Source of the DNA: Monodelphis domestica
Lineage: Eukaryota > Chordata > Mammalia > Didelphimorphia > Didelphidae
NCBI RefSeq assembly: GCF_027887165.1
Contig: NC_077227.1
Coordinates: forward strand, 77,210,488-77,274,487
Direction: 5' to 3'
Length of the DNA: 64,000 bases
This document shows, piece after piece, positions 2,216 through 25,153 of this stretch. The translations under genes were made by a program, and so were the position numbers. Every line of letters begins with the position of its first letter. Position 1 is the stretch's first letter. The notes below the pieces were generated by a model, which saw nothing but the letters and a program-made list of their open reading frames with translations, made no database searches and was not told where the DNA came from.

Positions 2216-2227
2216 CTCTTTCTGCTT

Positions 2228-2463
2228 AGAAAAACTGAATTGGTAGGGGGCATCTAGGTAGCTTGGTAGATTGAGAGCCAGGCCTAGAGATGGGAGGTCC
2301 TGGATTCAAATCTGACCTCAGACACTTCCCAGCTGTGTGACCCTGGGCAAGTCACTTGACCCCCATTGCCTAGCCCTTACCGCTCTTCTGCCTTGGAGCC
2401 AATACACAGTATTGATTCTAAGACAGAAGGTAAGGGTTTAAAAAAAAAGAAAAACTGAATTGG
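2228..2463 (+). repeat. Full-length WSINE1/MAR-like SINE with 16-bp target duplication
   Basis: The body (about 2244-2447) has the complete SINE from 'ggggcatctaggtagct' through 'ggattcaaatctgacc' to 'aagggttt' and an A tail. It is flanked by a perfect 16-bp direct repeat 'agaaaaactgaattgg' at 2228-2243 and 2448-2463. The perfect duplication marks L1-type insertion and a fairly recent copy. Confidence 0.92.
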
Positions 2464-2769
2464 CTTAGAGGACAGTGACTAATCAGGCTTTCCTATCTTT
2501 GGCCCAGGTCTTCCCCTCTTTTCTCATTAATTGCTTGTAAATTAATTCTTTAGCCCTTGAAGTCTTTAATTCTTATAACCTTTAATAGTTAAAGTCAGAA
2601 TCCACTGGGCTTTCCTCTTGATATGTGCCTATAACTTCTCACAGTGGGATTAGAATGAACATTTATTAGGTTTCTATAGTGAATTGCAAACAGAATATAG
2701 AACCATCCTTCCATCAGTGCATTCTGCAACCTTCCAGAGCAGAGGACACAGCAAAGAGGCACTGAAGAG
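2464..2769. other. no recognised feature
   Basis: AT-rich intergenic DNA without a repeat family or coding signal I can name. Confidence 0.5.
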
Positions 2770-3010
2770 ACTTCTTAACTTGTTGTCAGGAAGATCTGAG
2801 TTCAAATCCTACCTTGGACTGTTACTGGCTGGGTAACCCTTACGGGGCAAGTCTCCAAACCTCTCTCACCTTTGACTCCTTATCTATAAAATGGGGATGA
2901 TAATAGTACCCAGTCCACAGGGCTGGTGAGAAGTGCAAGTGAGATAATCTATGGGAAATCCTTTGCAAACCTTTAAGTGACATCTACGCTTTTGTAATTG
3001 TTATTAATTT
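2770..3010 (+). repeat. MIR-type SINE
   Basis: Shows the MIR order: 'gttcaaatcct' box, CORE-like 'gactccttatctataaaatggggatgataatagtaccc', and a 3' part near 'gtgagataatctatggg'. Confidence 0.75.
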
Positions 3011-3094
3011 CAGAGACGAGTGAGTGGCATTTGATTAAGGCTTGTGCTTTAACCATCATGGGACTTGAAGATTTTTTCAGACTCTTTTCCCCCT

Positions 3095-3290
3095 AGGAGT
3101 GAAGGATCAGAGATTTAGAGCTGGAAAAGCCTTAAAGGATCGTCTTGGTCAGTCCCTGCATTTTACAGATGGCAAAACTGAGACTGAAAAGAGGACTTTG
3201 CCCAAGTGGGGCCCCTGGGATTTGAACCCAGTTCAGCATTCTTTCCATTGTACCATACTCCCTTTCTGCCTTTTGTTCATTTAGGACATG
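3095..3290 (-). repeat. MIR/L3-type old repeat
   Basis: Same antisense pattern as at 2075-2215: 'gatttagagctggaaaag', 'cattttacagatgg', 'gggatttgaacccag'. Confidence 0.55.
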
Positions 3291-4019
3291 AGACCCTCAT
3301 TAGGTTTGCCAGACTCGGGACATTTCAGTTCTAGATTTTCCCAACAGCGGTAGGGCAGCTGCCAACCTTCCTCCTTTTCTGGTGAGGGGCAGGTGATTGT
3401 GCTTTCTCCTGCAGTGATGGGAACTACAGCGGGCATGTCAGGAAAAAGGTGCTACTCCTTTGTTCCTCTGACCATCTGCCCTTCCCTTCTGTCCCAGGGC
3501 CATCCATAGGGTTCTCTGAGATCTCAAGAAAACAATTACTTTGGAGTTTTCTTCAGGAGAAGCACCAGGCATCCTGATGGAAAGCATAAGAGTTGGCAAG
3601 ACTACTCTTTGTCCTTCCAGCATGGGAAGTTTCCATGGGAAACCTGAAGGAGAGGTGGTCAAATTGACCACCTTTTTCCCCCAAGTCAAGATGGCAGAGT
3701 CATGTGGCGACCTGGGGGTCACTTGGGGACGTGCTGGAGCCAGCTCTAACCAGCCTGGGAGACCCCATTGCCAAATTTCAATGTGGATCTTAATGCTTTA
3801 GAAATCATCAGAACCTGATTTATTGTGTTGTTGCTTGTCTACGCTTAAGAAAGCAATCATGCAAATTAAACTTCATTTCCTGCCCACCCCAGTCCCATTA
3901 ATAAACCTGTACCAGCACACACCCCCCTTTTTTTTCTACAAACTTGAACTCAGCAGGGGCACAGTAGGAGGCTCAGGGAATGAAGTCATCCTGGGACTGG
4001 AGGCCTGATGACTGAAGGC
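3291..4019. other. no recognised feature
   Basis: Mostly unique-looking sequence. Open frames of 94 and 86 codons on opposite strands overlap each other and have no recognisable domains. Confidence 0.45.
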
Positions 4020-4145
4020 TAAGAATAATCATAATAACTGGCATTTATGGAGCACTTGAAGGTCTGCAGCGTCCTTTGCAATCATGAGCTCATTGGAACC
4101 TTACAACACCCCTGAAACGAGATAGCCAAGCATAATGGCAGCCAC
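4020..4145 (-). repeat. MIR fragment
   Basis: The 'gcatttatggagcacttgaaggt' to 'ttacaacacccctga' stretch is the 3' half of a MIR read in reverse. Confidence 0.55.
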
Positions 4146-4659
4146 GTGGGAAGGGGCTTATTTGGCCTGAAAATTCAAGTATATCATTAATGGCCCAAGT
4201 GAAGGTATCCTAAGATAACCTTCCTGTGTTCTCTGGCTCAGTAGTTTTGAGCTATTTTGTTTTTATTTTACATTATAATTTGTTTTTAAGTCCTAGTGAA
4301 ATCCTTTTCTATGAAAAAAAAAAGCCTAATTCTGGGGTGAAGAGTGGGGCTAGTGTGAAGGGGAAATAAAAGCTTCTAAGCTTGGCTCATTGGAGTCCAT
4401 GGACTTATTTTTTTTCAAGATTTCAATCATTCTTTTAATATAATTGTCCTTTTATTTTTTAAATTAATTTTATGCATTTCCAAACATTATTTTGGCAATC
4501 ACTGGACTACTAAAGGGATCCAGGACCCAAAGAAAGTTATGATCCCCCTGATCCAAGGGCTTTGGTGTATCCCAGAGCCCTAGGCATGGGCTGGTGGCAG
4601 AGAGATTGTCCCAGGGACCCTGGGTGACCAGCATGTATCTAGTGACCAAGTGAGGCATC
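4146..4659. other. AT-rich, no clear feature
   Basis: Contains poly(A)- and poly(T)-rich stretches and a possible old DNA-transposon scrap near 4490-4560. No gene signal. Confidence 0.4.
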
Positions 4660-4980
4660 AAACCTTTATTTACCCCTTACTATGACTAAGCCCCATTCAA
4701 GGTATTGGGGAAAGCGAAGAAAAAGAAAGGCAAAAACTCTTTCCCTGGCTGCAAGGAGCTTACATTCTAATGGGGAGACAACCTGTAAATAACTAGGTAC
4801 CTGCAAGATGTGTCTGGAAAGGATGGATGGCAGTCTGAGAGGGAAGTGGCTTAGCAGCTGGGGAGTCTGGGAAAGGTCTCCGGCAGAGGCTGAGATTTGG
4901 GCTAAACCCTGAAGGAAGCCAAGGCAGATGGGAGTGAAGAAGGAGGGGATATGCAGGGCAGAAGTCTGAGTGGAAAAAGG
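4660..4980 (+). repeat. Old marsupial interspersed repeat ('caaggagcttacattctaatgg' family)
   Basis: Same family as 6515, 21715 and 31285: a decayed 'gccaggcactgt' head, then 'ctgcaaggagcttacattctaatggggagacaac', then a 'ggctaaaccctgaaggaagcc' interior. I recognise the family pattern but cannot name it with certainty. Confidence 0.55.
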
Positions 4981-5423
4981 AAATAGTCCAGAACCCCAAG
5001 TTGGGATGGAGTCTGATGGATAATCTCCTTTCCTTCCTGGGGTCCCATTTCCTCTGCTATGGTTATAGTAGAACTATGAAGGCAAAATCTCCAATATAAG
5101 TTATTCTCCAGCTACTGTGAAGAGCAGGGAAGGGGAGCCCCAGACTCTAACCAAAGCCACCACTTTTGGAACATCCTCTTTCCCATCCTTAGCAATTATC
5201 CTTGGGGTGTGGGGCCAAGATGTATTCCAGCATCTGGCAAAGAAGAGAGAGAGCTCCCTGGACCATTGTTTTCTGCCTGCTCATTCTAACTTGGTTTGCC
5301 CTTTGATTTTCACATCAAACTAGCTCTGAGTTCCCACATGGTGAGAAGGAAACTAAATGGAAAACTTTTTTCTAGTTGGGGGGTGGGGGGAGGGTGGAGA
5401 TGGAAAACTTTTTCTAGATGGAG
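4981..5423. other. no recognised feature
   Basis: Unique-looking DNA with a duplicated 'tggaaaactttttctag' motif and a G-rich spacer at 5356-5410. Confidence 0.4.
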
Positions 5424-5670
5424 GGAGCCTTTAAGATTTGCAAAAGCACTTTACACATATTATCTCATTTGATTCTCATTAACCTGAGACGTAGGTTATT
5501 ATTATCCCCAATTTACAGATGAAGAATCCGAGGCTGGGAGAAGTTAAGTGACTGCCCAGGGTCACACCGCTAGGCTGGTGCTATCATTATCCACATTTTA
5601 CAGATAGGGAAACTGAGGCTGGGAGAGATCAAATGGCTTGCCCAGTGACTCACAGCAAGTTTACACTGGG
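5424..5670 (-). repeat. MIR, antisense, partly doubled
   Basis: Shows 'ccaatttacagatgaagaatccgaggctgg' and then a second 'cattttacagatagggaaactgaggctggg'. Either two MIR pieces or a local duplication. Confidence 0.75.
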
Positions 5671-6379
5671 ATCTAATTGTCACCAAAGCTTCCACTATGT
5701 AAAAGAAAGAGATGTCTCTGAAAGAGGCCAAGTTTAGAAAATCCAGCAGTAGAACCAAGCAGGTATCGATGCACTTTTGGTATAAAGGGCAAGCCGTCAT
5801 CTTTTAGGAGTTCAAGTCTTAGGGCCTCTAATATAATCATGTGAAATCTATTAACCTCTCTGAGACAGAGATGGCCCTGGATTCTCAAAGGCTATCCGAG
5901 TTGCTTTGTTAATGGCTTTATTGCAAGTGGGTCCTGCTGAACCAATAGAAAAGCTTGGAGTGTGGGACTTTTCTAGCCCAGTGAATCTTAGAAAGTATCA
6001 CACCAAATGTTGGCTCGTAAATGATGACCTTTCTTAGCCAGAGCCACCTACTACGATTCCCCTATGTGCAGGACTTGTGAGCTGTTCTGAAGGAGGGAGA
6101 ACACGATTGGCTAGGTCATTTCCCAGTGAGCTGGACTCCTCTAGACCTTTTCATCCTGTCTTAGAACTCATCAGCCTTGGACTTCACAGTTCATCAGTAG
6201 GCTCTGCCCCAGGGGCCCCTCTTTCCTTTTGATTGGAGGATGGAGAGCAGAGAACCCTTTCCACAACCTTCATTTAAGAAAGGTGCTACAACCAGCCATG
6301 TCTTCCTTTCCCAATCAGCTGTTCTCCTCTGGACTTCACCATATCCCCCAGTCCTGTGTTTCAGCTACTTTTTCTGTGA
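5671..6379. other. no recognised feature
   Basis: No named repeat and no coding signal seen; possibly unique intergenic DNA. Confidence 0.4.
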
Positions 6380-6500
6380 TTTTCATTCAAGTGTAAGATC
6401 CTTGAGGGTAGGGACTGTCTTTTGCCTATCTTTGCATCCCCAAGACTTAGCACAGTGCCTGGCACACAGTAGGTGTTAATGAATGTTTACTGACTGCCTA
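6380..6500 (+). repeat. L2 LINE 3' end
   Basis: Classical L2 tail: 'taagatccttgagggtaggga', 'gcacagtgcctggcacacagtaggtgtt', ending in 'gaatgtttactgactg'. Confidence 0.85.
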
Positions 6501-6514
6501 CCCCTTGAAGCATT

Positions 6515-6660
6515 GATAATATCAGCACTAATAATCAATCGATAAGTAGTTATGAAGCACCTACTATACTATGGAAGATATGCTCAACTCTAGGGATTAA
6601 AAGACAAAAGTGAAAAAAGCTCTTGCCCTCAAGGAGCTTATAGTCTATCTATCATGGGAG
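6515..6660 (+). repeat. Old marsupial interspersed repeat ('caaggagctt' family)
   Basis: Contains 'gaagcacctactatactatgg' followed by 'cctcaaggagcttatagtcta', the same family as at 4660. Confidence 0.5.
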
Positions 6661-6839
6661 GTAACAAGTACACATATAGCTATATACATGTACTTGGAAG
6701 TATATACAGAAATTTTGAGTGTTTCCTCCAGAGAGTGAACTAAAAGGTAGAAACACATTTGACATAATTTGTATGTACATGTCTGCGTCCCACATGATGC
6801 CTTCGGAATGCAGGAATTGGGGAAGAGCTGGGACACCTA

Positions 6840-6955
6840 TGGCTAAATTAAATTAATTAAAATTAAATAAAAATATATACAAATTATACATAAAATAGTC
6901 ATAAGGTAATATAACTTTTATATAAAATGGGTATGTTTTATATATAAACAAGGAG
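6840..6955. repeat. AT-rich low-complexity tract
   Basis: A run of taaatt/ataaaa/tatata words with almost no G or C. Confidence 0.8.
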
Positions 6956-7060
6956 GGGCATTAGCAACCAGGAGGGTCAGAATCACAGCTCACAGAATGA
7001 GAGCTTCAGAAGGGATCTTAGAGACCATCCAGTCAACTCTTGCCTGAACAGAATCACACC

Positions 7061-7095
<35 letters not shown>
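7061..7095. repeat. (ACG)n microsatellite, about 11.7 units
   Basis: A pure ACG run of 35 bases, 12 of them in CpG cytosines, inside the old L3/CR1 copy. ACG/CGT is among the rarest trinucleotide microsatellites in mammals because methylated CpG decays. Confidence 0.97.
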
Positions 7096-8028
7096 ATATC
7101 CAACAGGTGGTTAGTCAGCCTCTGCTTGAAATCCTCCAAGGATGGCAAACTCAGTACCTTTGGAAGCAACCCATTCTACTTTGGGACAACCCTAGTTGTT
7201 GGGAAATGTTTTCTGATATTAAGGACAAATTCTGCTGCCTTTAAATCTGCTTTCAGGGGCCAAACAGAGAAAGTCTAATCTGTCTAATCCCTCTTCCATA
7301 TGAGAGCCCTTCAAAAGCTTGAAAACAATTGTATGTCTGCCCAGAATCTTCTTTTCTCCAGGCTAAACAGGCCCAGACCCTTTAAAGGATCCTCAAAGTA
7401 TCAATTCACCATCTTGATCGCCCTCCTCTGCCAACTCTCTAGCTTATTAATATTCTTCCTCCACTGCGTATCTAGTGAAATCTGGTGAGTTCAGAGTACA
7501 GTCGAACTCTCATCCCTCTATTCTTGGGAACGCTGTCCCTTTTAACACAGCAAAAGAGTGCATTTACTTTTTTGGCAGCCACATAACATTTCTGACTCAT
7601 ATGAAATTACAGTCCACTAAAACCCTCAGATCTTTTTCAGAATAATTGCTATCTAATTAAACTCCCCCAGTTCATACTTTGGGCATTGATCTTTTGTACT
7701 GAAGTGTAAGACATCACATTCATTCCTGTTGAATTTTATCTTAGTGGATAAAATCAGAGCCCATTGTTCTAGACTACCTAGACATTTGTATATTCTGACT
7801 GTCAGCCAGCATGTTGGCTATCTTTCCTGGCTTTGTGTCATCTGCAAATTTAATGTTCCTACCATTTATCGATGTTGTCATTGATAAAAATATTAAGCAT
7901 CTCAAGACCTACATTGAAGATGTCTTGTCCCATCAACACTGAATTATTAAGTGCTCTTTGTGTCTGGCCATTCAATTAGTTCTGAGTCTGTCTGAATCCA
8001 TGTCTTCTTCACAAGAATAGTCTGAAGA

Positions 8029-8204
8029 GAGCAGCCAGGTAGCTCAGTGGACCAAAAGCCAGGTCTAGAGATGGGAGGTCCTGAGTTCAAATTTGACCTC
8101 AACTAGCAAATCCCTTAACCCCCAATTGAATTGCCTAGCCCTTAATACTCTTCTGCCTTGGAACCAATACAAAGTATCGATTCTAAGATGGAAGGTTTTT
8201 TTTT
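8029..8204 (+). repeat. WSINE1/MAR-like SINE inserted in L3/CR1
   Basis: Starts 'gcagccaggtagctcagtgg', has 'gagttcaaatttgacc' and 'cttctgccttggaacc', and ends in a T-rich/AATAAA tail. A short internal deletion follows the B-box region. Confidence 0.85.
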
Positions 8205-9460
8205 TAATAAAGAATCGCATGAGATACTTCATTAAGAGCTTTGTAAAAATCTAGGTAGTCTATATGCATACTATTTCTTTCATTGACTAGTTCAGAAACC
8301 CAATCAAAAAAAGGAAATGAGACTAGTTTGGCGTGCTTCATTCTGAATAAAGCTGTGCTGGTTCATTGTAACTATTGCTTCTCTTTCTAGATGTTCACTA
8401 GCCATCTCTTTAAAGATCAGTTTTATAATTTTTCTTGGAGTCAAAGGCCAATTCACTGGTCAGTAGTTTATAATTTGCTTCTCACTTTTGAAAATTAGGA
8501 CCAAATTCATCTTTCCCCAATCTTGTAATGCCTTTCTTATTTTCCATGATCATTAAATATCATTGTAGTGATTACTTTTGACAGTTCCTAAGGATGTAGT
8601 TCATGGGCCAGGTGACTTGAATTCATCAGTGGAAATTCTCTTACTATCTCCTTCCTATGCATGGAAGTCACTCTGTGTGAGTAATGTTTGTTCTGTTATT
8701 TCCTGTTCAAGGGTCCTTCTCCTTGTCAGAGAAAACAGAAAGAAAGCAAGATCTGAGCAGCTCTTCCTTCTCTTTCTGCTGTCATTTGCCACCATCCCCT
8801 CTACCCCAAGCAAAGGTCCTGTCCTGTCTTTGATCCTCCGTTTTCTCCCAATGGAGCGAAATCAAACAAAAAACAACAAAACATCCTTTTATGCTGTCCT
8901 TGGCTTCCCTTACTGATCTCGGCTCATCCTGTTCTTTAATATTCCTGACATTCTTACAATTCTGTGCTACGATATAATATTTATTCGGTTGCCTCATTTT
9001 GTTTTCATCTCTTGTACATTTCTTTTTAAAAATCCAAGTTGGTTGGCGAGGTCTCTGTTTGCCTCCACTAGACTCTCCAGGCAAAATCCCAGTTCTCTCT
9101 CTCAGTGGAGTTTGTGTCTTCAGAATTTCATTCTTGAACATCTCCCCATCCCTCCTTGACTCACTTTCCTGACAGAATGTTAATCCACAACATCATACCT
9201 TTCTTTAGAACCCTTTGAAGTCTGCTTTGCCAAAATCTAGGGTGAATGTCAGGCTATGCCCAGAATGCCTCTCATTTGTTATTGTAAACTTCAGCATGGA
9301 GCGAGTACTCCCTGCTATTCCCAGGTCTCCTATCATTTTCAACCTAGCAACCAATTCCTGTAGCAAAAATCAGATTCAGCATAGAATCTATGATTATTGA
9401 TTCCTCTGCCTTTAGAAGGATGAAATCATCACCAAGGAAAGTCCAGAAGTTATTAGTTGC

Positions 9461-10059
9461 TTTGCTTTGGGAATATAGAAAGCTTCTTTAAATTTCTGTT
9501 TAAGTCAATAAAGGCATCATGTAGAATGTGGGGTTGTAGCTGAGTCTTGAAGGAAACTAGGTACTCTGAGAGGCAAAAATGAAGAAGGAGGGCATCCTAA
9601 GAATGGGGGAAAGCCAGCACAAGAGCACAGAGATGGAAGCTGGAGGGTGCTTTATGTAGTACCATCTTCTGAGCTATCTTCCCAAGTTGGTCCTCATAAA
9701 TTTACAGGTTCAGTACCCAAGGTGGGAAACCACTTCTGGTTTCAAGAATACTCTGTGGATTGTAGTTCATGAGTCCCCACTGGTTATATTTACTTCTAAT
9801 AATCAGCCAATAGACAAAAGAAACTCAAAATTAAAGGCATTTACCAAATTCATTTAATAAGTTCAGAATCTACAAAATTTACCTCCCCATAATGTAATAT
9901 ATTTAGTAACTATGGGAAGAGTGGAAACAAACTCCTTCATTCCTCTCTAGTTTAGCCAAACTGGCCTATATGTAGTTCTTCAAACTTAATATTTCATTTC
10001 TCATCTCTATGTATTTGCACAAGCCAGCTTTCATGCCTACTATATACTCATTCTTCATC
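9461..10059. other. mostly unassigned; scrap of old repeat
   Basis: About 9530-9640 resembles the interior of the 'caaggagctt' repeat family ('cttgaaggaaactaggtactctgagagg'). The rest is unassigned. Confidence 0.4.
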
Positions 10060-10330
10060 TTTGCCTGTCTGAATTCTTATCTTCCTCCAATGCTAATCAC
10101 CTCTTCCATCCAGCCTTCCCAGATTCTACTCCCAATAGTTAATACTCTCTTCCTTTTCCTCAAATCACCTTGTATTCACTTGTCTGTGTACTTGTCTCCT
10201 CAATAAAATAAAAATCTCCTAAAAAACAGGGAGTGTACCCAGCACCTTGAATAGTACCTGGCACAGAGATTGGTTAATCAATCAAGCAATCAATCAGACA
10301 TTTATTAAGTGCTTGTGTTTGACATTATGC
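10060..10330 (+). repeat. L2 LINE 3' region
   Basis: Decayed L2: 'catccagccttcccagattc', 'tcacttgtctgtgtacttgt', 'agtacctggcacagaga', then a 'catttattaagtgctt' end. Confidence 0.6.
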
Positions 10331-11137
10331 ATACAAAGAATAAAACAGGTGTGTATATTTGTGTATATATGTATGTATGTATTGTAAAAATTAAAATTAA
10401 ATTTCAATAATAAAATATTATATTTTAGAATTTTTACAGTATGTATACCTTAAAATGTAAATGATGATACATTGACCCTATGGGAAATAGGGGGTTAGGT
10501 TCCTGCAATCACCAAAAACTATGATTTTTTACTAGAGATTGCTGAAAATACTCTTTTTTGTATTTAATTCTTTTAAACAAAACATTAATTCTGATAATAT
10601 GTACTTTCCCTAACACAGTAATCAGGAAATAATCCATCAAGTGCAATACACAAAATAAAATTGGTAACATGCAAAACAATTTTCTTGCTAGCAATCCCCT
10701 AGAATTCTGTGACATTTTGTGCTAATGTATCAATTCAAATAAACAGACACTGATTTCAGACAATATTCTACTGCTGTAAACCTCTTGACTTCAGATGCCT
10801 TCTGAAAACCAAAGGGGAGGTTGCTTGGATTTTAGCCAGTGCTATCAGAAGATACTGTGACTGGTGAGGTCTTGACAGCACCACCAACACTCCAGATACA
10901 TGGGGAGCTCTTTACAGTGGAAGGGTGAAGAAGACCAGTGAAGCACTTAATAGGATACTAGTCACTTCACACACTTGGTGGAGTCATACCTCTCATGTTC
11001 TCTTCTACTCACATCCACTGATGTGTGTGGTTGCCAATACAAAACTGAGAATGAGGTTATTAATGAAATCACTTGAATGCTTGAAGTTGCAAAAGTTAAG
11101 AGCTCAAATGTTGATTATATGTTTTATAGATGTAACA
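10331..11137. other. AT-rich, no recognised feature
   Basis: Includes simple gtatgtat repeats near 10355-10380. The stretch 10470-10560 may be an old DNA transposon but I could not place it. Confidence 0.4.
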
Positions 11138-11154
11138 TATATGTGAGTACATAG
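11138..11154. repeat. Target-site duplication, left copy
   Basis: 'tatatgtgagtacatag' matches 15167-15185, where the same word carries a 2-base TA insertion. It brackets the RTE-like LINE. Confidence 0.8.
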
Positions 11155-11197
11155 TAGTCTCTCGGTGATCGAGAATGACGATTGTCTTTGTGCAGTT

Positions 11198-13160
11198 TCA
11201 TCTACGGTGTACCCTCATGTGGCTTTGGAGTCCAAAGGCTGAGGCGCACAGTTTGTGGCACATGGGGCATGGGACGCCAGTTGTTACGGGAGGTGCGGTT
11301 GTGGCCTGGTGTCGGCCTTCACGCGCAGCGGCAAGACGTCAATGTCACTCATCATCAAAGGTGATGGCGGCATGGTGAATGTGCGTTCGCCAGCTGCTTC
11401 GGTCAGAGGCAGCGAGTTCTAGTTGCTTTGGTGTAATACCAGCCCACCTCAAGTTGGACTTTAGCTGATCCTTGAATCTTTTCTTTGGTCAGCCTTGTTT
11501 CCTGAGTCCAGCTGACAGTTTACCATAGAATACCTGTCTTGGTATTCGCTGTGGGTCCATGCGGATGACATGTCCAAACCATCGTAGCTGGGTTTTGAGG
11601 ACTTCAATGCTGGTGGAGTTGGCTCTGTCGAGGACTTCCTGGTTGGTGATTAGGTCCTGCCATCGGATCCTCATGATTGACTGGAGGGAGCATTGGTGGA
11701 ATTGCTCCAGCTGTTTCATGTGCTTCCGGTACAGTGTCCATGTTTCACAACTGTACAGGAGCGAGCTGAGGACCACTGCGTCGTACACTTTGAGCTTCGT
11801 CGCAGTGCTTACACCTCTGTGTTGGAGGACTTTGCAGCGCAGCCGCCCAAGTGCCTGGCTGGCCTTTTGGATCCTGGCATTAATCTCATGGTCTAGGGAC
11901 CCGTCATTGGCGATGGTGCTGCCCAGGTACTTGAAAGTGTTGACGTTAGAAAGCTGCTTGCCATCGATTGTAATGCACGGCTGGTTCGTTGGCCTCCCTG
12001 GTGCAGGTTGGAACAGCACCTCTGTTTTGCTGAGGCTGATAGTCAGGCCAAACAGTTTTGTTGCGGTGGAGAACCTGTCCACAATGGTTTGGAGATGATT
12101 TTCTTGGTGGGCCATGAGAGCACAGTCATCTGCGAAGAGAGCTTCCAGGATGAGTCTCTCTGTTGTCTTTGTTTTTGCAGTCAGGCGGCGAAGGTCAAAT
12201 AGTGAGCCATCCAGTCGGTATTTAATGTAGACGCCCAGGTCTAGATCCATCACAGCATGTCGTAATACTTGGGTGAAAAATAGGTTGAATAGTACCGGAG
12301 CAAGGACACAGCCTTGTTTCCCGCCATTGGAGATGTTGAAGCAATCGAAAGTCTCTCCACCAGATAGGACTTCCCCTGTCATGTCGACATGAAAGAGCTG
12401 GATCAGTTTGACAAATTTTGCTGGGCAACCGAGCTTACTGAGGATCACCCACAATGCGTCCCTGTTCACTATGTTGAATGCCTTTGTCAGGTCTATGAAG
12501 ACAATGTAGAGACTCAGGTTCTGCTCAAGGCATTTTTCCTGCATTTGCTTCACCGTAAAGACCATGTTGATGGTGCGGTCGGAAGCCACATTGTGATTCA
12601 GGCAGGTTCTGCTCTGAAACAGATGACAGGAGTCTGTTGAGTATAACACGGACGAGGATCTTTCCGGCAGTGGAGAGTAGTGAGATGCCTCTGTAGTTGT
12701 CACAGGCTGCTCGTGAGCCTTTGTTCTTGTATAGGGCTATGATGGAGGCATCTCTGAGTTCTGGGGGCATGTCTTCCTCTTCCCATATGCTGGTCAGTAC
12801 TATGTGGAATGCCTGGAGTGCCTTTCCTTTAAAGGCCTTGTACACCTCAATTGGGATCCCATCTTTACCGGGTGGCTTGCCTGCACTCATTTGTTTGATG
12901 GCTTTTTGGACTTCCTCTATTGAAGGAGGGACATCAAGTTGTTCAATGGAGGGGTTTTGGTGGATCTGGTCAAGGGTGCTTTGGTCGACTGAAGAGGGTC
13001 GGTTGAGAAGCTGACTGAAGTGTTCTTTCCACCTGTTGCTGATGCCTTTTTTATCTTTTATGAGAGTGTCACCGTCAGAGGATAGCAAGGGAGTGGTGGT
13101 GGGTTTTGATGGCCCATAGACAGTCTTGAGGGCACTGAAAAATTGTTTATAGTTTTTCAT
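11198..13160 (-). pseudogene. LINE reverse transcriptase and C-terminal zinc finger region
   Basis: Encodes the reverse transcriptase of the LINE. Visible motifs: GKPPGKDGIP (near 12880), LTKAFNIVNR (near 12490), GGKQGCVLAPVLFNLFF (near 12310), the catalytic FADD (near 12120), and KYLGS (near 11930). The 404-codon stretch 11489-12703 is open. The upstream part (12525-13160) is open in another frame, so one frameshift lies near 12575. Stops at 11486-11488, 11345-11347 and 11339-11341 are TGA; the first may replace CGA (arginine), and the two after 'FDDE' fit arginine codons. The chain ends with a finger of form C-x2-C-x12-H-x3-H at about 11207-11270 and a stop at 11198-11200. Confidence 0.9.
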
Positions 13161-13202
13161 ATCAGCAAACCACTAGATTTCTTCTGCCTTTTTTTCCCAT
13201 CA

Positions 13203-14414
13203 TCAGTCTTGCATCTTCCTGATCTCACGCTGTGCCGTGGCTTGGAGAGACTTGAATCTGTCCTTTTTAGGAGCAGAGTTTGGGTTATTTTGCCACTCCA
13301 TAAAGGCTTTGTTCTTCTTGCTCAATAGGTCTTCAATAGCAGTGTTGTTCTCATTGAACCAGTCCTGGTGGTTGCGTTGTTTTGGGCCTAGGACTGCCTT
13401 TGACGTTTCCTTCACTGCATCTCTGAACTGGTTCCATTTCTTGGTTGAGCTTCCAGTGAGTGGTCCCTTGGCAGACAGCTTGTTGTCCAGGCAGGACTGG
13501 AATGTTTGCAAATAAGATGGATCTCTAAGATGACTCACGTTGTAAAATGCACGAACTGTCTGGGCGTGTTTTGGATGGCGAGGCACAATGCGCATTTGAA
13601 GAGTCGCTCTAACCAATCGGTGGTCTGTCCAGCATTCAGCTCCTCTCATGGCTCTGGTGATCTTTACATCCTGGATGTCTCGCCGGCGTACAATGATGTA
13701 GTCAATGAGATGCCACTGTTTTGATCTTGGGTGCATCCACGTTGTTTTATATTTGCTGAGTAGCAGTAGGCCATTGTTGTTCATTTTACCCACGCTGTGT
13801 TTGCCAAGCACTCCTTTCCATCTTTCATGGTCCTGGCCAACGCGGACGTTGAAGTCTCCCAGTAGTATCAGCTTGTCATTTGTGGGCACTGAGTGCAGGA
13901 CGGCACTCAGGTCAGAGTAGAACTGCTTGATGGTCTCCTCTGTGCTGGTCAGTGTTGGGGCATATGTGCTGCTGATTGTGGCATACCGGTCTTTGCTGAG
14001 AGGCAAACAGATCTTCATGAGCCTCTCGCTGATGCCCACAGGCAAGTCTGGCAGCTGTTTGAGCAAACTGGCCTTGATGGCCAGGCCAAAACCGTGGACT
14101 CTGTCTTCATTTGAGGCTCTACCTTTCCAGAAGAAGGTGTATCCAGTGGTGGGTTCGCTGAGTGATCCCTCTTCTGGTAAGCGTGTTTCACTTAAGGCTG
14201 CGATGTCGATGTTATATCGCGCCAGTTCTTTACCGATTAGAGCTGTTCTCTCAGGTCTTGGGGTATTCTCTCTATCAAGTAATGTTCTGATGTTCCATGC
14301 TCCTAGTAGGAGTTTCTTTGTATTTTTTCTTTTATTTTGACCACTTAAAGGGGATGACCCGCCAGCCGCGGTGTGCTGACCGGGTGTTTGTAGGGCAGGC
14401 AATGTTTGGGACAC
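13203..14414 (-). pseudogene. LINE APE-type endonuclease
   Basis: An open frame of about 400 codons. Motifs of the apurinic/apyrimidinic-type endonuclease appear in order: WNIRTL (asparagine of the active site), SETRL (glutamate), YAPT, LGDFN (Asp and Asn) and TDHRLV (Asp-His pair). Two stops separate it from the same-frame continuation: TGA at 13203-13205 and TAG near 13174, the latter probably a former CAG. The same frame is also open upstream at 14457-14753 but without recognisable domains, so the true start is unclear; the frame here opens at GTG, not ATG. The domain would nick target DNA at integration. Confidence 0.9.
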
Positions 14415-15166
14415 CTTTTCTAGTTCCCTCTCTTGATTAGGGTGAGCAGTGCTGTCCTAGAGAGGGCTGCTCAGTTGCCCAGGATGCTGCCGAGCATCCA
14501 TGCTGCCCACAGGGCCGAGCGACCACTGGTCCGTGGGCTGCCTACGTGCAGGATTGTGACTACAACTGCCAATGGTCACCTCCACCTGTTGCGTCATCAC
14601 TCCCCCATCGTCGCAGGTCTTGAAGAGGTGGACGGGGTTAGGATAGATGAGTGTACACAAAGATACTTGTGCGTGAAGGAGATTTAAGTGGAAAAGTCGA
14701 TGCACAGAGACAGTCCCACTCTCTTGGCGTTGGAAGCCTGGGTCCAGTGGCACGAAAAATTGTTACACCTGGAGACTTCCTCAGCTGCATTGGATGGCCG
14801 TGTTGTCTTTTGTGCTCCAACACACCCTAAGCACTCCACAGTGCTTCGCTGCATCACCATCTCAGCCGTTGAACCTTCTTATTGGTTTCTTCCATCTGTT
14901 CAGCCAAAGCATTCTTCACATGCTGGGTGAGCAAAGCCCTGGTTCACCAGGGCTCAATGACCCGATGGCTACCCTCACAAGGTTTGGCCGGCCTGTCGAA
15001 GCCATTGCCCGGGGTGTGGCCGCTGCCCCATGCTAGCAGCTACTGGGAGCCACAAGTGAGAACTGGGTGTCAGGTGGGGGTCAGAGGCTGGAGAGCTGCC
15101 CTAGGAGGGCACGACAAGCCCTCCATACCAGAGATACTACTCCTCCCTGAGCACCCCATACACCCC

Positions 15167-15185
15167 TATATGTGAGTATACATAG
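15167..15185. repeat. Target-site duplication, right copy
   Basis: 'tatatgtgagtatacatag' against the left copy 'tatatgtgagtacatag': 12 identical leading bases, then TA extra, then 'catag'. Confidence 0.8.
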
Positions 15186-15619: not shown

Positions 15620-15800
15620 GGGTGCAGCTAGGTGGCTCAGCAGATTGAGAGCCAGGCTCAGAGATGGGAGGCCCTGGGTTCAAATCTGACCTCAGACACT
15701 GCCTAGTTGTGTGACCTTGGGCAAGTTATCTAACTCCCATTGCCTAGCTTTTCCCACTCTTCTACCTTAGAACGAATACATAGTATTGATTCCTAAATGG
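15620..15800 (+). repeat. WSINE1/MAR-like SINE
   Basis: Nearly complete: 'gcagctaggtggctcagcag', 'gggttcaaatctgacctcag', 'ttgcctagcttttcccactc', ending 'gattcctaaatggaagg', which runs into a purine microsatellite. Confidence 0.9.
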
Positions 15801-15814
15801 AAGGAAAGGAAAGG

Positions 15815-15925: not shown

Positions 15926-16240
15926 CTAGGAGAACAATGACTACTAATATAAATGGAAACAACAGGAACAGGATGCTGAGTTCAGATTAAATGCAATGAC
16001 CATTGTGGTCTTGGAGAAGAGGTGATGAGAGACACTTCCCTTCACCCATTTGAGAGTTGGGAGATTGTAAGTATTGAATGCTGTATATAATCTCAGATAC
16101 AGTATCTGAAATAGTTCTTTGGCTTATGGTGACAGAGCAGGTGTTGGGAAGGGAATAATAGAGCAATAAATATCAATGAAATTTTATAAACTATTAAAAT
16201 TAAACATTAATAAATTAATAAAAAATCAAATATCTCTTCA
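15926..16240 (+). repeat. Possible decayed L1 3' end
   Basis: 'ctaggagaacaatgactactaatataaatggaaacaac' and 'ctgagttcagatt...ggtcttggagaagaggtgatga' resemble the L1 3' end also seen at 17840-18300. Weak. Confidence 0.4.
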
Positions 16241-16869
16241 GGCTTCTTGTGTCCTCCATTTATTCAAAGCTAGAAATAGAACTGTACAATACTGTAGCAA
16301 AGCAAAAGGTCCAGGAGACAATAAGCCACTCTGTCTTCCAACTCTGTCATAGCCCGCTCACTAATGTGCTATTCCCAGGCTGGCTGTCCCTTTTAAGAAG
16401 GATTGGGCCAGCTGCCAGGTGTTTTTCAAAGAACACATTCTGTCCTACAACCCCTACCAGAAACCCAAGCCCAGAAACTCTGGCCCCCTGTCCTCCACAT
16501 GCTCTGTGTTATTCACTACAAAATTAACTAAATAGGGCAGGTTTCAATGTGCCAAAATATGATGTAACTATATTTTTAATATAATACTCAAAGATTCATT
16601 CATTCTTCCAATAAGCATTTAATTCGCAGAGTACCACTATCTTCAGGAAACTGTGCTGGGTGCTGAGCTGAAAGAAACAAAGCATTTATAATATTTAATG
16701 CTTTGTTGATGTGTTGTCCAAGGATATCATGCTCATTAGTAAGCCATATAAACAAATACCAAATTATTGGCATGAATTTAAGCTTTAATGTATTTCCCAA
16801 TTCTATTCCCATTGTTACCACCCCAGCTAGAATGCTATCATGAGTAGTTCTTAAATGAATTGCGAATTA
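16241..16869. other. unassigned; small repeat scraps
   Basis: About 16590-16690 carries a decayed 'aagcatttaattcgc...tgctgggtgctgagc' repeat head. No coding signal. Confidence 0.4.
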
Positions 16870-17208
16870 TAAATAACAACAAGAAAAATTGCTTCAAATC
16901 CCTAATAATAAGAGAAATACAAATCAAAACAATCCAGAGATTTCAGCAAACACCCATGGCAACTGGCAAAGATGACAATAGATGAGAACAGTGAAATCGA
17001 TTGTAGAAAACCAGTATACAAATAGACCCTTGGTGAATGGGATTATGCTGAGAATGTGACTATACCAGGCATATTCCCCAAGAAAGTCAAAGATAGAAAA
17101 GAAAGATCTTATATATATTAAAATATTGATAGTAGCACTTTTTATAATAGCAAAGAACTAGAAACAAAATAGATCCTTATGGATTTGGGGTTGGTTAAAC
17201 AAAGAGTT

Positions 17209-17466
17209 TGAGGCAAGTAGGTAGCATAGTATAGAACGCTACTAGCCCTGGATTCAGGAAAACATCTCTTCATCAGTTCAAATCTGGCCTCAGACACTAG
17301 CCACCTGACCCTAGGAAAGTCACTTAACCCTGTTTGCCTCAGTTTCTTCATCTGTAAAATGAGCTGGAGAATGAAATGTTAAACCACTCTAGTATCTCTG
17401 CCAAGAAAACCCCAAATGAGGTCATGAAGAATTGAGAATAACTGAACAATGATTGAACAGCAACAA
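17209..17466 (+). repeat. MAR1-like SINE
   Basis: 'aggcaagtaggtagcatagt', 'gttcaaatctggcctcagac', 'gtttgcctcagtttcttcatctgtaaaatgagctgg', and the end 'aaaccccaaatgaggtcatg'. Complete but diverged. Confidence 0.85.
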
Positions 17467-18087
17467 TAACAGAATGAAATGAGAATGTATCAGACTGGTA
17501 CTACTATTATTATTAGTTATTGTTACTAGACTATTGGAAACATTGAATATGAAGACTAACATGTAAGATTAAAAATAATATCCAATAGCTTCAAGTATTA
17601 TATTTTATAAGATTTATTAATAATCACTCGAAGTAGAAGAAATAAAAAGACAAAAATAAAAGACTGAGTAAAGAAAAAATTTTCCCAGTCACATTCGCTG
17701 TAAAAGAGAGAGAGGGGCAGGTCACACACAAACTTTATCTCCAAAACATAAGGACACACATAAGGTGAGAACGAAAGTGGGATGCTGGGATTTAGAGTCC
17801 TGGGGAGCAGATCTAAATATACACAAGAAGTACTAGAAAATATATAAACTGATGCAAAAGGAAGTAAACAGAACCAAAAAAATTATACATAATGACTGAG
17901 CAATGTGAATAGAAAAAATAATAACAAAAATGAAGCCAAATGCCTAGGAACTGGAATCATTAAGGTTGATCCTGAAGAAGAGGGGAGAGAATAAATGTTC
18001 CTCACTTCTTAGCAGAGGTAGAAGACTATCAAACACTGAGTACATAGTTAGACCTGGTGTTAGACTCTATTAGTTTTGCTGAATACT

Positions 18088-18098
18088 CTCTCTCTGTT

Positions 18099-18136
<38 letters not shown>

Positions 18137-18225
18137 CATTTCTCTCTCTGTATCTCACTTTCTCTGTCTCTATCTGTCTGTCTGTCTCTCCCTCTGCCCA
18201 TCCCTCTCCATTTTTCCTCCTCTCA
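18088..18225. repeat. (TC)n / (TCTG)n microsatellite
   Basis: Includes eight uninterrupted TCTG/CTGT units near 18100-18127 and imperfect TC runs around them. Confidence 0.93.
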
Positions 18226-18469
18226 TTTGTTATAAGGGATGACTCTCTGGGACAGAGAGAGTGGGAGGGATGTACTTGGAAATGAAGATGATGTTAAAAA
18301 CAAATATGGCCATTGGAAGGGTATTTGAGTGTAGGAAGTCACCAAGATAAGGAGTAGAATAATAGAGCAGGCAGTTGACAATCTGTCCCTCTTGCTTAGC
18401 TGTCTGTCCCCCTTGATTTAGCTGTCCCTCATGTCTCGAATCCTGTCTCCCTTCTCATTTATATATCTC

Positions 18470-18745
18470 CTGGCTTCCCTGGTTTCCAAGACTCAATCAA
18501 ATTTTACCTTCTGTAAGAGGCCTTTCCTGGTCCTCCTTTCCTCCCTCCCTCCCTTCCCTCTGAGATTACCTCCCATTTTTACCATAAGTATATAATTGTT
18601 TGCATTTTCTGCCCCATTAAAATATGAGTTCCTTGAAGGCAGGAACCATATTTTCCCCTTTCTGTGTATCCCTAGGGCTTAGCACAGTGCCTGGCCCAGA
18701 GCAGGCGATTCATAAGAGCTTGTCGACTGATTAACTGACTCCCAT
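18470..18745 (+). repeat. L2 LINE 3' end
   Basis: 'gtaagaggcctttcctggtc', 'gttccttgaaggcaggaacc', 'gcttagcacagtgcctggcccagagcagg' and a final 'gactgattaactgac'. Confidence 0.85.
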
Positions 18746-20189
18746 TGTGGAAACTTCTTTCACCACTGCGAACGGTGACAATTCTCTGTGATTTATAGCC
18801 TCAGAGATTCTAAGGGCTGCTAAGAGGTTCAGTGATTTGCCCTAATCACATTTCTAGTATGTGTTCTTTATGACTAAGACTTTTGGAGGACTCTGTAATG
18901 CTAGTCATTGCAAAAAAAAAAAGCACAAGAACAATGAAACTGATTAAAAAATGATTTATTTTGTTATTCCTCGAGGAAACTCAGGTTTATACTGAGGTGA
19001 AGGAGAAGGTAAAGAGCTATGATTGCAAGGATTCTTGAAGCAGTGACTGCCAAGCACTTTCAAGAGCTATAATGGTTGATGGCTCTGCTTCAGCCCAATT
19101 TCAACTTTACTTCTAAACTAAAGACTTTCTAATTCTTGCTTAAGATGTGTCCCTGGCCCTTGTATATAACCAGTGCTTCCTTTTCTTGCTACAGCCACAT
19201 CACTTGCACTCTTCTCGGGCTGATCAGTGAAGACCCGAGTCATTTTTTTATTCACCAATGGAATGAAAAACGATTTTCTCGAGGACATTGAGCGTAAGTT
19301 GGAAGGGTAATTGATGACGATTTATATGTATGAAAAAGAAATTGCCTGAAATAGAAAAATGGGACTGTGAATGATGAAAACTGGAGGGGAACTCATCTGA
19401 GAGCATAATGGGAGAATGATCCCCCAAAGGGGAAAGAAAGGCAATGGTGGGGAAGATGCAGTGAGGCAGCCATTTCCTTGAGCTAGCCTCCAGGTGGCAT
19501 TACAGGTTCAGAAGAATGTCATTGCTCTTTGGGTGAAGGAGGGAAGAGGGCTTGATCTTGAGGTGAGTTAAAGGAAGGCAAGGCAGTGAGCCAATGGCCA
19601 TATGTGTTCATGGTAGGCTTCTAAATCATGAGTTTATAACTCATAGAGTAACTGATTGAAAGTTAATTATTTGTGTAAACATTCAATGAAGAAAAAGACT
19701 TTATTGATGGAAGAGGATGAGGCTGAACCAAGGATCGCTCCATGTTCCCTTGTGGTGTTATATCTCTCTAATTATACGTGATGATCTCTCACAATCAATC
19801 TCCAGGCTGTACTTAATGCATCCCCTGGGATGACATCCTGGGCAGTCAACCCCATCCTTCCCAGCTGGGTACAGCTCTATGCCCCATTAACTATGTAGCT
19901 CCCTTCTTCCTTAGATTCGGGCTACTGAAAGAAGCTTCTATTCTTCTCCATCTTAGAGGCAATTAAAATAAAACATCATTGAGAGCAGTCAGGTGGAAAA
20001 GTCCAATTTAGATATGATGTTAGTATTAGTATAAGGATTACTAAGTCAGTAGGAAACTCATGAGGGGCTGTGAGAGATTTCCAGGACATGAGGCTCAATA
20101 ATCAATATTTGCAGACAACATGAACAATTGAATTTGATTACATTAAATGCTCAGTTAGAAAGATCACAGTCTAATTATTACTCATAGCT
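18746..20189. other. no recognised feature
   Basis: Unique-looking DNA of 1.4 kb. There is no open frame with a domain and no splice-flanked exon that I could see. Old repeats too decayed to recognise are possible. Confidence 0.4.
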
Positions 20190-20400
20190 GACATGAGATA
20201 GAGAAGCAATATGGAGTAGGGGAATGACCACTGGATGTGGGATCAAAGAATTTGAGTTTGAAATTTGGTCCTACTGCTTGCTGTATGACTTTGAGCAAGT
20301 GGCTTGCCCTCTCTGGGCCATAGTTTTCTCATTAATTCAAATTAAGAAGTTGGACCAAATGATCCCTAATATGCCTTCAAATCCTATATCCTAGCACTTT
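20190..20400 (+). repeat. MIR
   Basis: 'gactttgagcaagtggcttgccctctctgggcc' and 'agttttctcatta' mark the MIR core. The 3' part ends at 'aatgatccctaatatgccttc'. Confidence 0.7.
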
Positions 20401-20454
20401 CTAAATTAATTTAAAAATTAACCCATTATTTTGGACTTTTCCCACTAGTAAGTT

Positions 20455-21345
20455 GAACACATGCAAAAGACTAGGGCTTAAAATCAAAACAACTCTGAGG
20501 TACCACCTCACACCAAGCAGATTGGCCAATATGAAAGCAAAGAAAAGTAATAAATTTTGGAGGGGATGGGGCAAAATTGGGACATTAATGCATTGCTGGT
20601 AGAGTTGTGGATTGATCCAACCATTATGGAAGGCAATTTGGAACTATGCCCAAATGGTGCTAAAAGACTGTCTGCCCTTTGATCCAACTATAGCACTGCT
20701 GGGTTTGTACCCCAAAGAGATAATAAGGGAAAAGACTTGTACAAGAATATTCATAGCTGCACTCTTTGTGGTGGCCAAAAATTGGAAAATGAGGGGATGC
20801 CCTTCAATTGGGGAATGGCTGAACAAATGGTGGTATATGTTGGTGATGGAGTACTATTGTGCTCAAAGGAATAATGAACTGGAGGAATTCCATGTGAACT
20901 GGAAGGACCTCCAGGAAGTGATGCAGAGTGAGAGGAGCAGAACCAGGAGAACACTGTACACAGAGACTGATACACTGTGGTACAATCGAATGTAATGGAC
21001 TTCTCTACTAGCAGCAATGCAATGATCCAGGACAATTCTGAGGGACTTAGGAGAAGGCATGCTATCCACATTCAGAGGAAGAACTGTGGGAGCAGAAATA
21101 CTGAAGAAAAACAACTGCTTGATCACAAGGGGAAATAGGGATATGATTGGGGATATAGACCCTAAATGATCACTCTAGTGCAAATATGGAAATAGGTCTT
21201 GATCAAGGACACATGTAAAACCCAGTGGAATTGTGCATCAGCTATGGGAGGAGGATGAGGAGAGGGAAAGAACATGAATCTTGTAACCATGGGAAAATAT
21301 TCTAAATTAAATAATTAAATAAAATTTTCCAAATTAAAAAAAAAG
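20455..21345 (+). mobile_element. L1 LINE 3' end, 5'-truncated
   Basis: Covers the last part of L1 ORF2, the 3' UTR and the A-rich tail ('attaaataaaattttcc', then poly(A) near 21335). 5' truncation is typical of L1 copies. The 3' end recurs at 62755, so both belong to one subfamily or close ones. Confidence 0.93.
20612..20995 (+). pseudogene. L1 ORF2 protein C-terminal segment
   Basis: About 127 open codons that match the L1 ORF2p C-terminus: IQPLWKAIWNY, LPFDPTIALLGLYPKE, CTRIFIAALFVVAKNWK, WWYMLVMEYYCAQRNNE. The equivalent human segments (QPLWKTVWRF, FIAALFTIAKTWK, MEYYSAIKK) are well known. The stop after YNRM is probably near the native end. Endonuclease and reverse-transcriptase domains are absent. 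Confidence 0.92.
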
Positions 21346-21714
21346 TTATCTGGAAAAACCTAGAGTTTTCGAAGACTGATCTTGACCTGAGAAGTGATGC
21401 TCCAGAGATGCTTCTTCCCCATGGACTTGTTCCTCTCCTCAGAATTTTTCTTTGCTTGAAACTCATCCTCCATGCAACTCCCATGTTCATTGGTTTCCTG
21501 CCCCAGTCTGTGACGTCAGAGGTGGAAAACCAATCTGAAGCACCTGAGCGAGTCCTCACCTCTCCTGGTTAAATACTCAGCTCTCTTCAGCATTGCACAA
21601 GGAGCTAATTCTGTCCCAAAGAACTAGAGGAGTGACGTAGAATTTATTATAACTGGTCTGGAGGGTTCCTCTCACCTGGATCAATTATCCCTTCTATTAC
21701 TCCTTACTTAATCA
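21346..21714. other. unassigned; holds a perfect CRE octamer
   Basis: Unique-looking sequence with TGACGTCA at 21511-21518. No transcript evidence is visible. Confidence 0.4.
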
Positions 21715-21860
21715 GATGGTTAATAAACATTTATTAAGCATTTATTATATGCCAGGCACTGTATGCACTGAGCACTAGGAATACAAAGAGAGACAAAAGA
21801 TAGTTTCTGCCTCCAAGGAGTTTACAGTCTAATGGAAAGAAGATTCACAAAATCAAGCTG
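21715..21860 (+). repeat. Old interspersed repeat ('gccaggcactgt' family)
   Basis: 'taagcatttattatatgccaggcactgta', 'ctccaaggagtttacagtctaatgg'. Same family as 4660 and 31285. Confidence 0.65.
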
Positions 21861-22009
21861 AAAAGAAGAGGTTGTTGGGGAGGGGGAAGAATACTGGCAG
21901 TGAAGACATGGATTGCCCTCCTTAAATGGGAGCCTGAAGATCACTTTCAGTGGCAAGCTGGGACCCTCGATACCTTCCCCCTTCCTAGTTTAAAAATAAT
22001 AAAAATAAA

Positions 22010-22240
22010 AATAATGGCACCTACTACATGCCAAGTACTTTATAATTTTTATCTCATTTTATCCTTAGGACAACCCTAAGGAGGTAGGTGCTAATATTAA
22101 ACCCATTTTACATATGAGGAAACTAAGGTTAAGTGATTTGCCCAGGGTCACACAGCTAGTGTCTAAGTGGGAATTTGAACTCAGGGTTTCCTCACTCCAG
22201 ATTGCTCTATCTAATATACCCAGTGCTCTGTACTATACGA
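22010..22240 (-). repeat. MIR
   Basis: Antisense MIR: 'cctactacatgccaagtactt', 'cattttacatatgaggaaact', 'agtgatttgcccagggtcacacagctag', 'aatttgaactcagg'. Confidence 0.88.
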
Positions 22241-22369
22241 CCTTGATGGCTGTACCATGGATGCTCCTATCAATCCAGGCTTTGCCTTCTTCCTTTTAAT
22301 ATCCTCTCCCACACTTCAAGTACTTAAAATGAAGGACTTTCTCTTAGTTGAGGGAATATGAATAAGCCA

Positions 22370-22610
22370 CAGCAGCTAGGTGGGTAGCCTTGGATGAGTG
22401 CTGGGCCTTGAGTCAGGGAGATCTGAGTTTAAATTTGACCTCAGGCACTTACTAGCTGTGTAACTCTGGGCAAGTCGCTTAGCCCTCTTTGCCTTGTTTT
22501 CCTCCTCAGTAAAATGAGCCGGAGAAGGGCATGGCAAACCACTCCTGTATCTTCGCCACGAAAATTCCAGATGGGTCATGAAGAGTTAGACACAACTGAA
22601 ACAGCTGAAT
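22370..22610 (+). repeat. MAR1-like SINE
   Basis: From 'cagctaggtgggtagccttgg' through 'gagtttaaatttgacctcagg' and 'aaaatgagccggagaagggcatggcaaaccactcc' to 'atgggtcatgaagagttagac'. Complete. Confidence 0.88.
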
Positions 22611-23141
22611 ACCAATGACTACAGAGCTTTTGCTTTTATCACTATTGGCTGGTTTGCTTCTTCCACGGAAATCTCCAAGCCCCAGAAGAGTCACAAAGTC
22701 AGAAAGAAGGAAAAGAAGGAGAGAGGAACTTGTCCTTTCTCCAGAAATATCCAGCTCATTCCAAGCAAGTTGGACCTGAAGAACAACAACCTTCAGAGAC
22801 AGCTAGGACCAATGAGGGCTATTGGGGGCTCCCTGGGGAAGGCACTGTATTTCTTTCTCCCTCTCTCTACTTGCCAGACTCATAGACGAATAGCCCCCCT
22901 CAGCCCAGTCTCTGCCCTCTCTACTTCTCCTCCTAGTTAACATTCAAAGGCATGGCTCTAACCATGTCATTTCACTCCCATGTTTAACAGGGGAGCTTTG
23001 ATGCCACCATGTTGCCTCTAGGATGAAAGTCAAGTTCCTCAGCCTGGCTTTCATGCTCTCCCAACCAACCTCCAGGTTTATCTTGCATTATTTCCCTCTA
23101 TATTACAGCCAAACTGCACTATAAACTGTTCTATTAACAGT

Positions 23142-23322
23142 TCAGGGGATTGAGAGCCAGACCTAGAGATGATACCTGGGTTCCAATCTGACCTCAGACA
23201 CTTCTTAGCTGTGTGACCCTGGGCAAGTCACTTAACCTCCATTGCCTAACCCTTACCACTATTCTACCTTGGAACCAATACACAATATTGATTCTAAGAC
23301 AGAAGATAAAGGTTTTTAAAAA
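23142..23322 (+). repeat. WSINE1/MAR-like SINE
   Basis: 'ggggattgagagccagac', 'gggttccaatctgacctcag', 'attgcctaacccttacc', 'taaaggtttttaaaa'. Head slightly shortened. Confidence 0.88.
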
Positions 23323-23544
23323 CAAAGACAAAAAAACTATAATTCAGACTGCTTCTTTTTGAATATCTCCCACATACTTAGCACAGTTCCAGATGTATAG
23401 TAGGCTTAATAAATATTTATTGACTGATTGACTATTGGCTGATGATTTCTTGTACACAACATTCCTTCTCCTACTTTGGTGCCTTCATTGAAGTTGTCAC
23501 ATATCTGGAATGTCCATCCTTCTCTTCACTAGCTCTCCTCAAGA

Positions 23545-23735
23545 AAAAGGCAACATTGCTAAATGGAAAGAACATGTGAATGAGAATGCCAAGACCTTGA
23601 GTTCAAATCCTGCCTCTGTCACTCCTTGCATAAACTTGGACGAGTCACTTGACCTTTCTGGGCCTCTGTTTCCTCAACTGTAAAATCAGGAGATGAGATG
23701 AGATCTCTAAAGTCCCTTCCATCATCCTTTGCTCC
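23545..23735 (+). repeat. MIR
   Basis: 'gagttcaaatcctgcctctgtcact', 'gagtcacttgacctttctgggcctctgtttcctcaactgtaaaat'. Confidence 0.8.
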
Positions 23736-23955
23736 TTATTTTCCCTTGAGGCTCAGTGGACATGCCACTTGCTTCATGAAGCCTTCCTTGATCCTCAGGA
23801 TTCTTGGTGTTCTTTCTCCCTTCAAAGTATTTGGTATTTATTTACACTATTCATGTTATATCTGTGACCCTCATTAGACTAAAAACTCCCTGAACACAAG
23901 GCCTGTTTTCTTTTTGACTTTGTATTCCTGAAACCTAACACAATAGCAAGCACAT

Positions 23956-24199
23956 TTTGTTGTTGTGCGATTGTTTTCAGTCATATCACACTCTGTGACC
24001 CCATTTGGAAGTGCCTTGGCAAAGATACTGGAGTGGTTTGCCATTTCCTTCTCCAGCTCCATTTTACAGATGAGGAAACCAAGGCTAGTGGGATTAAGTG
24101 ACTTGCTCAGGACTGCACAGGAATCTGAGGCCAGATTTGAACTCAGGAAGAGGAATTTTATTGACTCCAGGTCTAACACTCTATCCGTTGAACCACCTA
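23956..24199 (-). repeat. MAR1-like SINE
   Basis: Antisense: 'gtgaccccatttggaag', 'ggagtggtttgccatttccttctccagctccattttacag', 'agatttgaactcagg', ending at the A-box side 'tgaaccacctaag'. Confidence 0.88.

Positions 24200-25085: not shown

Positions 25086-25153
<68 letters not shown>

Follow-up and report, generated by a model that had tools for sequence, protein, structure and literature searches.

Opossum RTE elements and the copy in the window

Long interspersed nuclear elements (LINEs) of the RTE clade encode an apurinic/apyrimidinic (AP) endonuclease followed by a reverse transcriptase in one open reading frame (ORF) with no RNase H, and have a short 3' untranslated region (UTR) that ends in a short simple repeat and has no poly(A). 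In the gray short-tailed opossum (Monodelphis domestica) one such element, RTE-1_MD, provides the tail of the short interspersed nuclear element (SINE) RTESINE1, the head of which is an RTE 5' end (PMC3747384); RTESINE1 is described as confined to the lineage leading to the opossum (PMC2910653) and, according to PMC4476161, is believed to owe its mobilisation to RTE_Mdo. A second element, MAR4, found in both opossum and wallaby, is described as an RTE 5' end with an RTE-2 tail (PMC3747384). The subject here is an element of ~4.0 kb within 64 kb of opossum contig C1 (the whole stretch analysed, referred to as the window), which we take with good confidence to be an RTE-clade LINE of this species, most likely RTE-1_MD, nearly full-length but dead. 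Its family numbers thousands of copies in this genome and is most likely one that is already known; the element is an ordinary and typical member of it.

The element is of RTE type and lies on the minus strand, its core of 4,013 nt running from 15166 (5') to 11154 (3'). These limits were set where similarity to the fetched genomic copies ends, and the span 11138-15185 given earlier is the core plus flanking repeats. An Exo_endo_phos domain (PF03372, 1.3e-09) is followed by RVT_1 (PF00078, 2.2e-20), both over the Pfam curated cut-off, which is the order of endonuclease and reverse transcriptase motifs that had been read from the letters, and RNase H is absent among the Pfam families found at E <= 1 for the ORFs of the element. 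The reverse transcriptase has matches in the PDB (8c8j, 1.9e-09; human L1 ORF2p, 2.6e-09; R2, 2.9e-05), and the endonuclease has none there at E <= 1. The element thus has the domain order, the lack of RNase H, the short 3' UTR and the simple-repeat tail of the clade, with a reading frame that is broken in this copy. The RTE plan, and with it the original prediction of an RTE-like LINE with endonuclease and reverse transcriptase, is therefore supported by both domains, the short 3' end and the tail.

The coding span begins at 14456 and ends with a terminal stop at 11347, some 1,037 codons on. It is interrupted by four internal stops (13205, 13202, 13175 and 11491) and by a frameshift, an 8-nt deletion worked out to lie at about 12577, past which the frame of 12525-13172 is noncoding. 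Furthermore, 54 nt that the majority of copies have near 13750, inside the endonuclease, are missing. The window copy is dead and incapable of activity; another copy (L039) retains a stop-free run of 911 codons. An earlier count of five stops and one frameshift in about 1,070 codons was close, the frameshift being confirmed and the stops within the span numbering four; a further stop at 14459, directly ahead of the coding span, may have been counted as the fifth.

Word counts and copy searches spanned the whole assembly (3,586,138,614 bases in 13 contigs), with family words of 32 bases and up to 3 mismatches; words tolerate mutation unequally and the counts are approximate. The LINE word close to the 3' end occurs 7,349 times, that in the reverse transcriptase 5,257 times and that in the 5' body 2,111 times, with controls at 0; target-primed reverse transcription would be expected to give such a fall from 3' to 5' through truncation of 5' ends. 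Among 40 matches scored of 3,259 candidates, 39 others were 96-97% identical over 437 bases; the closest of the scored relatives reach 97% over those 437 bases (40 scored of 3,259) and, when the final 181 bases are compared, 98-99% (40 scored of 1,249). Full-length copies with nearly identical ends make up 12 of the 20 best copies that were fetched. A tblastn search of the 64-kb window gave no further copy, the best E-values being 0.49 and 0.60.

An ancient reverse transcriptase-like fossil does lie elsewhere in the window, at 27264-27644 on the plus strand, with five stops in 127 residues and no Pfam match. It is far more decayed than the element and falls within the 26-28 kb where a decayed RTE/BovB copy had been noticed. 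When 150 of 460 candidates in the genome were scored, 28 weak matches besides itself emerged, at 30-74% identity, the higher identities being short and the two best by E-value standing at 38%.

Table 1. Parts of the element and its flanking duplications, in window coordinates.
Feature	Position	Strand	Basis or remark
RTE-type LINE core	11154..15166	-	similarity limits in fetched copies; 12/20 full length
Target-site duplication, 5' side	15167..15178		exact 12-nt match with 11138-11149
Target-site duplication, 3' side	11138..11149		exact 12-nt match with 15167-15178
5' UTR	14457..15166	-	all three frames carry stops
AP-type endonuclease part of ORF, 417 codons open	13203..14456	-	PF03372, 1.3e-09
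Linker and reverse transcriptase start	12525..13172	-	RVT_1, 8.8e-05, under Pfam cut-off
Reverse transcriptase, coding frame after frameshift	11489..12736	-	RVT_1, 2.2e-20
ORF C-terminal end, after internal TGA at 11491	11345..11491	-	terminal TGA at 11347
Short 3' UTR, about 190 nt	11154..11344	-	last ~39-58 nt common to derivative
Possible small hairpin, TCTCGATCACCGAGA, at 3' end ahead of tail	11160..11174	-	genome word list and pair counts

Insertion, derivative and age

On either side of the core stands the same 12-nt word, tatatgtgagta (plus strand), at 11138-11149 and 15167-15178, an exact direct repeat in keeping with the target duplications first proposed; the repeat lengthens to 16-18 nt if one 2-nt indel is allowed, and 11150-11153 can be either a remnant of the tail or an extension of the duplication. 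Flank matches of at least 7 nt were found in 9 of the 16 copies that have readable ends, the window copy included, compared with 15.4% of 240 mismatched flank pairs, and three of the nine are weak, lying in a TA microsatellite (L044), in AT-rich sequence (L055) or over the tail repeat (L047). Most of the 17 fetched copies whose tails were read end in TAC, CAC-TAC (CACTAC) or TAT, one (L050) is nearly without a repeat, and none of the 17 has a poly(A) tail. Among the 20 fetched best copies, two (L040 and L051) have the 5' part inverted at the start, as in twin priming, and L058 is more complex. Target-site duplication and 5' truncation, both features of target-primed reverse transcription, are observed in this family.

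A word from the 5' UTR occurs 11,395 times (control 0), over five times the 2,111 of the word further in, and the excess is accounted for by a derivative of ~580 bp that joins the first 515-526 nt of the LINE to its last 39-58 nt and has no ORF. The shared part of the 5' UTR is its first ~520 nt (about 15166-14644), and subtraction of 2,111 from 11,395 gives about 9,000 derivative-type 5' ends. Ten loci of the 5'-UTR word, taken from the 13 at the head of the list (of the three skipped, two lie near a reverse transcriptase word and are probably LINEs), comprise eight derivatives, one LINE (L077) and one locus without a tail (L074). The first 100 listed of 11,565 3'-end words (control 1) include 49 that start with T and 49 that start with C, and this first position of the possible hairpin is typically C in the derivative and T in the LINE. 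A less biased set was made of 3' ends on C1 in coordinate order, 12 starting with T and 8 with C. All eight C-type ends have the derivative structure, some of them 5'-truncated, and the 12 T-type ends are seven LINE bodies that reach the fetched edge, three truncated LINEs, one remnant of the last 35 nt and one derivative. When 40 matches to the 3' end were scored, the twelve at ranks 2-13 all proved to be LINE and none a derivative. The derivative is probably RTESINE1, the published description of which it fits both in plan, a LINE 5' end joined to a LINE 3' end, and in low divergence.

By analogy with other LINEs the endonuclease would nick the target and the reverse transcriptase would prime on the 3' end of the element and copy the RNA from there, a process of target-primed reverse transcription. 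Its expected traces are duplicated target sites, a tail that is short and TAC-like, and numerous copies truncated at the 5' end. The ~580-bp derivative was most likely mobilised in trans by this machinery, and the last ~39-58 nt, being common to LINE and derivative, are likely to be the recognition signal. The possible hairpin lies within this 3' end, and covariation gives it no support: in the first 100 of the 11,565 words, double CpG changes keep Watson-Crick pairs in 3 cases and break them in 6, and 89 of the 100 listed words fall in CpG or decay classes. The absence of covariation would be expected if copies decay neutrally after insertion.

In an alignment of 18 copies (17 of the 20 fetched and the window copy) the window copy differs from the majority at 119 of 4,012 positions (3.0%), or 1.5% outside CpG-prone columns, and the other 17 lie 2.5-4.2% from it (1.0-2.4% outside CpG). 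In the less biased set the seven T-type LINE bodies are 2.9-4.8% from their group majority (1.0-3.7% outside CpG), with the window copy at 3.8% (2.0%); the remaining five T-type rows, at 0.15 to 0.585, were excluded from this range as stretches that are largely non-homologous. Five derivative rows are 4.2-6.6% from their own majority (2.5-5.5% outside CpG), and three 5'-truncated ones are at 12.0-26.9%, values inflated by flanks. At a neutral rate of 2-3 x 10^-9 per site per year, a divergence of 2% corresponds to roughly 7-10 million years. The orders of opossum and wallaby are placed 75-65 million years (Myr) apart (PMC3403934), and a divergence of about 2% outside CpG is far under that expected for such an interval. 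Activity of the family well after the marsupial orders split, and to that extent the recent activity that had been suggested for it, is supported; with family words counted in thousands and 3.0% divergence from the majority, the window copy itself is not exceptional.

The original prediction also drew attention to CpG, and the contrast with the flanks is indeed strong, the observed/expected ratio being 0.459 in the element against a flank median of 0.111 and maximum of 0.391 (31 1-kb bins, 1-11000 and 16001-36000); very low genomic CpG content also fits the marsupial host that had been proposed. The family majority has a ratio of 0.624, and of the 173 CpG dinucleotides in the majority of aligned copies 117 remain in the window copy. 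The element is CpG-rich because the family sequence is CpG-rich and has not yet decayed, and its CpG content is no evidence of foreign origin.

Family identity and horizontal arrival

The element shares with RTE-1_MD (RTE_Mdo), compared by description, the endonuclease and reverse transcriptase plan, the short 3' end, a partner made of 5' end plus tail, and youth; no difference between the two was seen at this level, apart from the stops, frameshift and gap that disable this copy. RTE-2 with MAR4/WALLSI3, again by description, has the same partner plan and, being found in opossum and wallaby, is older, and BovB and AviRTE are alike in plan at the level of the clade, as far as they are described in PMC4844689 and PMC6036668.

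Several points weigh against the assignment to RTE-1_MD and against the counts around it. The clade name is inferred, and the family name, likely as it is, derives from plan and youth; the partner plan alone cannot single out RTE-1_MD since MAR4/RTE-2 has it too, and it is the youth of the family that does so. Seven of the 16 flank pairs are without a repeat of 7 nt, the 20 fetched copies are best matches and so biased to likeness, three of them (L052, L053 and L058) were left out of the majority alignment for internal gaps, and the eight derivatives among ten loci are more than its true share of such loci.

Gentles et al. 2007 reportedly distinguished at least four RTE families in the opossum, along with SINEs mobilised by them, and are said to have found support for horizontal transfer, so that a claim of this kind would not be new. 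It is possible, though we think it unlikely, that the present family reached the didelphid lineage by horizontal transfer and then expanded, a history that would not conflict with its being RTE-1_MD. Where PMC7140322 describes such transfer of LINEs among vertebrates as rare, it makes an exception for the RTE clade, citing its references 9-11 (reference 10 being the opossum study of Gentles et al. 2007), and BovB, another RTE, is given in the review PMC5857283 as having entered mammals, marsupials included, in at least four transfers. The divergence of the family, far under that expected from the 75-65 Myr separation of opossum and wallaby (PMC3403934), points the same way, but young copies date the activity of a family and not its arrival. 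Moreover, PMC3403934 derives the tails of the WALLSI SINEs, found in Australian marsupials, from RTE_MD, with a similarity of 70%, and marsupials therefore probably had relatives of the family long before. Two scans of viral contigs and one of prokaryote genomes, collections that contain no animal genomes, confirmed no outside relative (pattern matches 7, 9 and 60). A narrower form of the idea, in which the LINE entered the didelphid lineage horizontally once this had separated from the Australian marsupials, and its own deletion derivative spread along with it, would seem a little more doubtful again.

It would seem improbable, more so than either form of horizontal arrival, that the element belongs to RTE-2_MD, RTE-3_MD or a BovB-like family and not to RTE-1_MD. 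Several RTE families have been published from the opossum, and MAR4, the partner of RTE-2, is built like the derivative (PMC3747384); yet MAR4/WALLSI3 occurs in both opossum and wallaby and MAR1, the partner of RTE-3_MD, is tRNA-headed according to the same source. PMC2910653 places the activity of Mar1 and WALLSI3 in both lineages or at the node of Australidelphia, and with non-CpG divergence of about 2% for the LINE and roughly 4-6% for the derivative the present pair looks too young for shared families. RTE-1_MD is favoured over RTE-2 because this low divergence fits a pair that is confined to the opossum. That the element is an assembly contaminant, an alternative raised in the original prediction, can be dismissed with near certainty, as matching copies with different flanks and duplications are dispersed over contigs C1 to C9.

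Other features of the window and significance

The exons of a lysyl-oxidase-like gene occupy 44381-53325 on the plus strand, a stretch that is richer in GC and CpG, where seven ORFs were scanned, four with SRCR parts and three with Lysyl_oxidase parts. A minisatellite at 49143-49425 (units of about 39 bp, 7.2 copies) adjoins an SRCR-bearing ORF, and a TC-rich tandem array with a 70-bp period together with an AG dinucleotide array is found at 38830-39198 and 40093-40267. A SINE-like repeat of ~190 bp is present at 2246-2435, 15620-15809, 23148-23333, 36302-36456, 41347-41514 and 63162-63346, its copies being 74-88% alike pairwise. ARAGORN reports a single tRNA-Pro (cgg) at 55706-55782 on the plus strand, which is without an Rfam match at the gathering score and is probably false; Rfam gave no match at gathering scores over the whole window.

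A single copy of the kind described here matters little, and horizontal transfer, if true, would matter more. Counted over the whole assembly, what this copy represents is a LINE other than L1 which, together with its short derivative, was active in the lineage of the opossum at a time when the orders of marsupials had long been separate.

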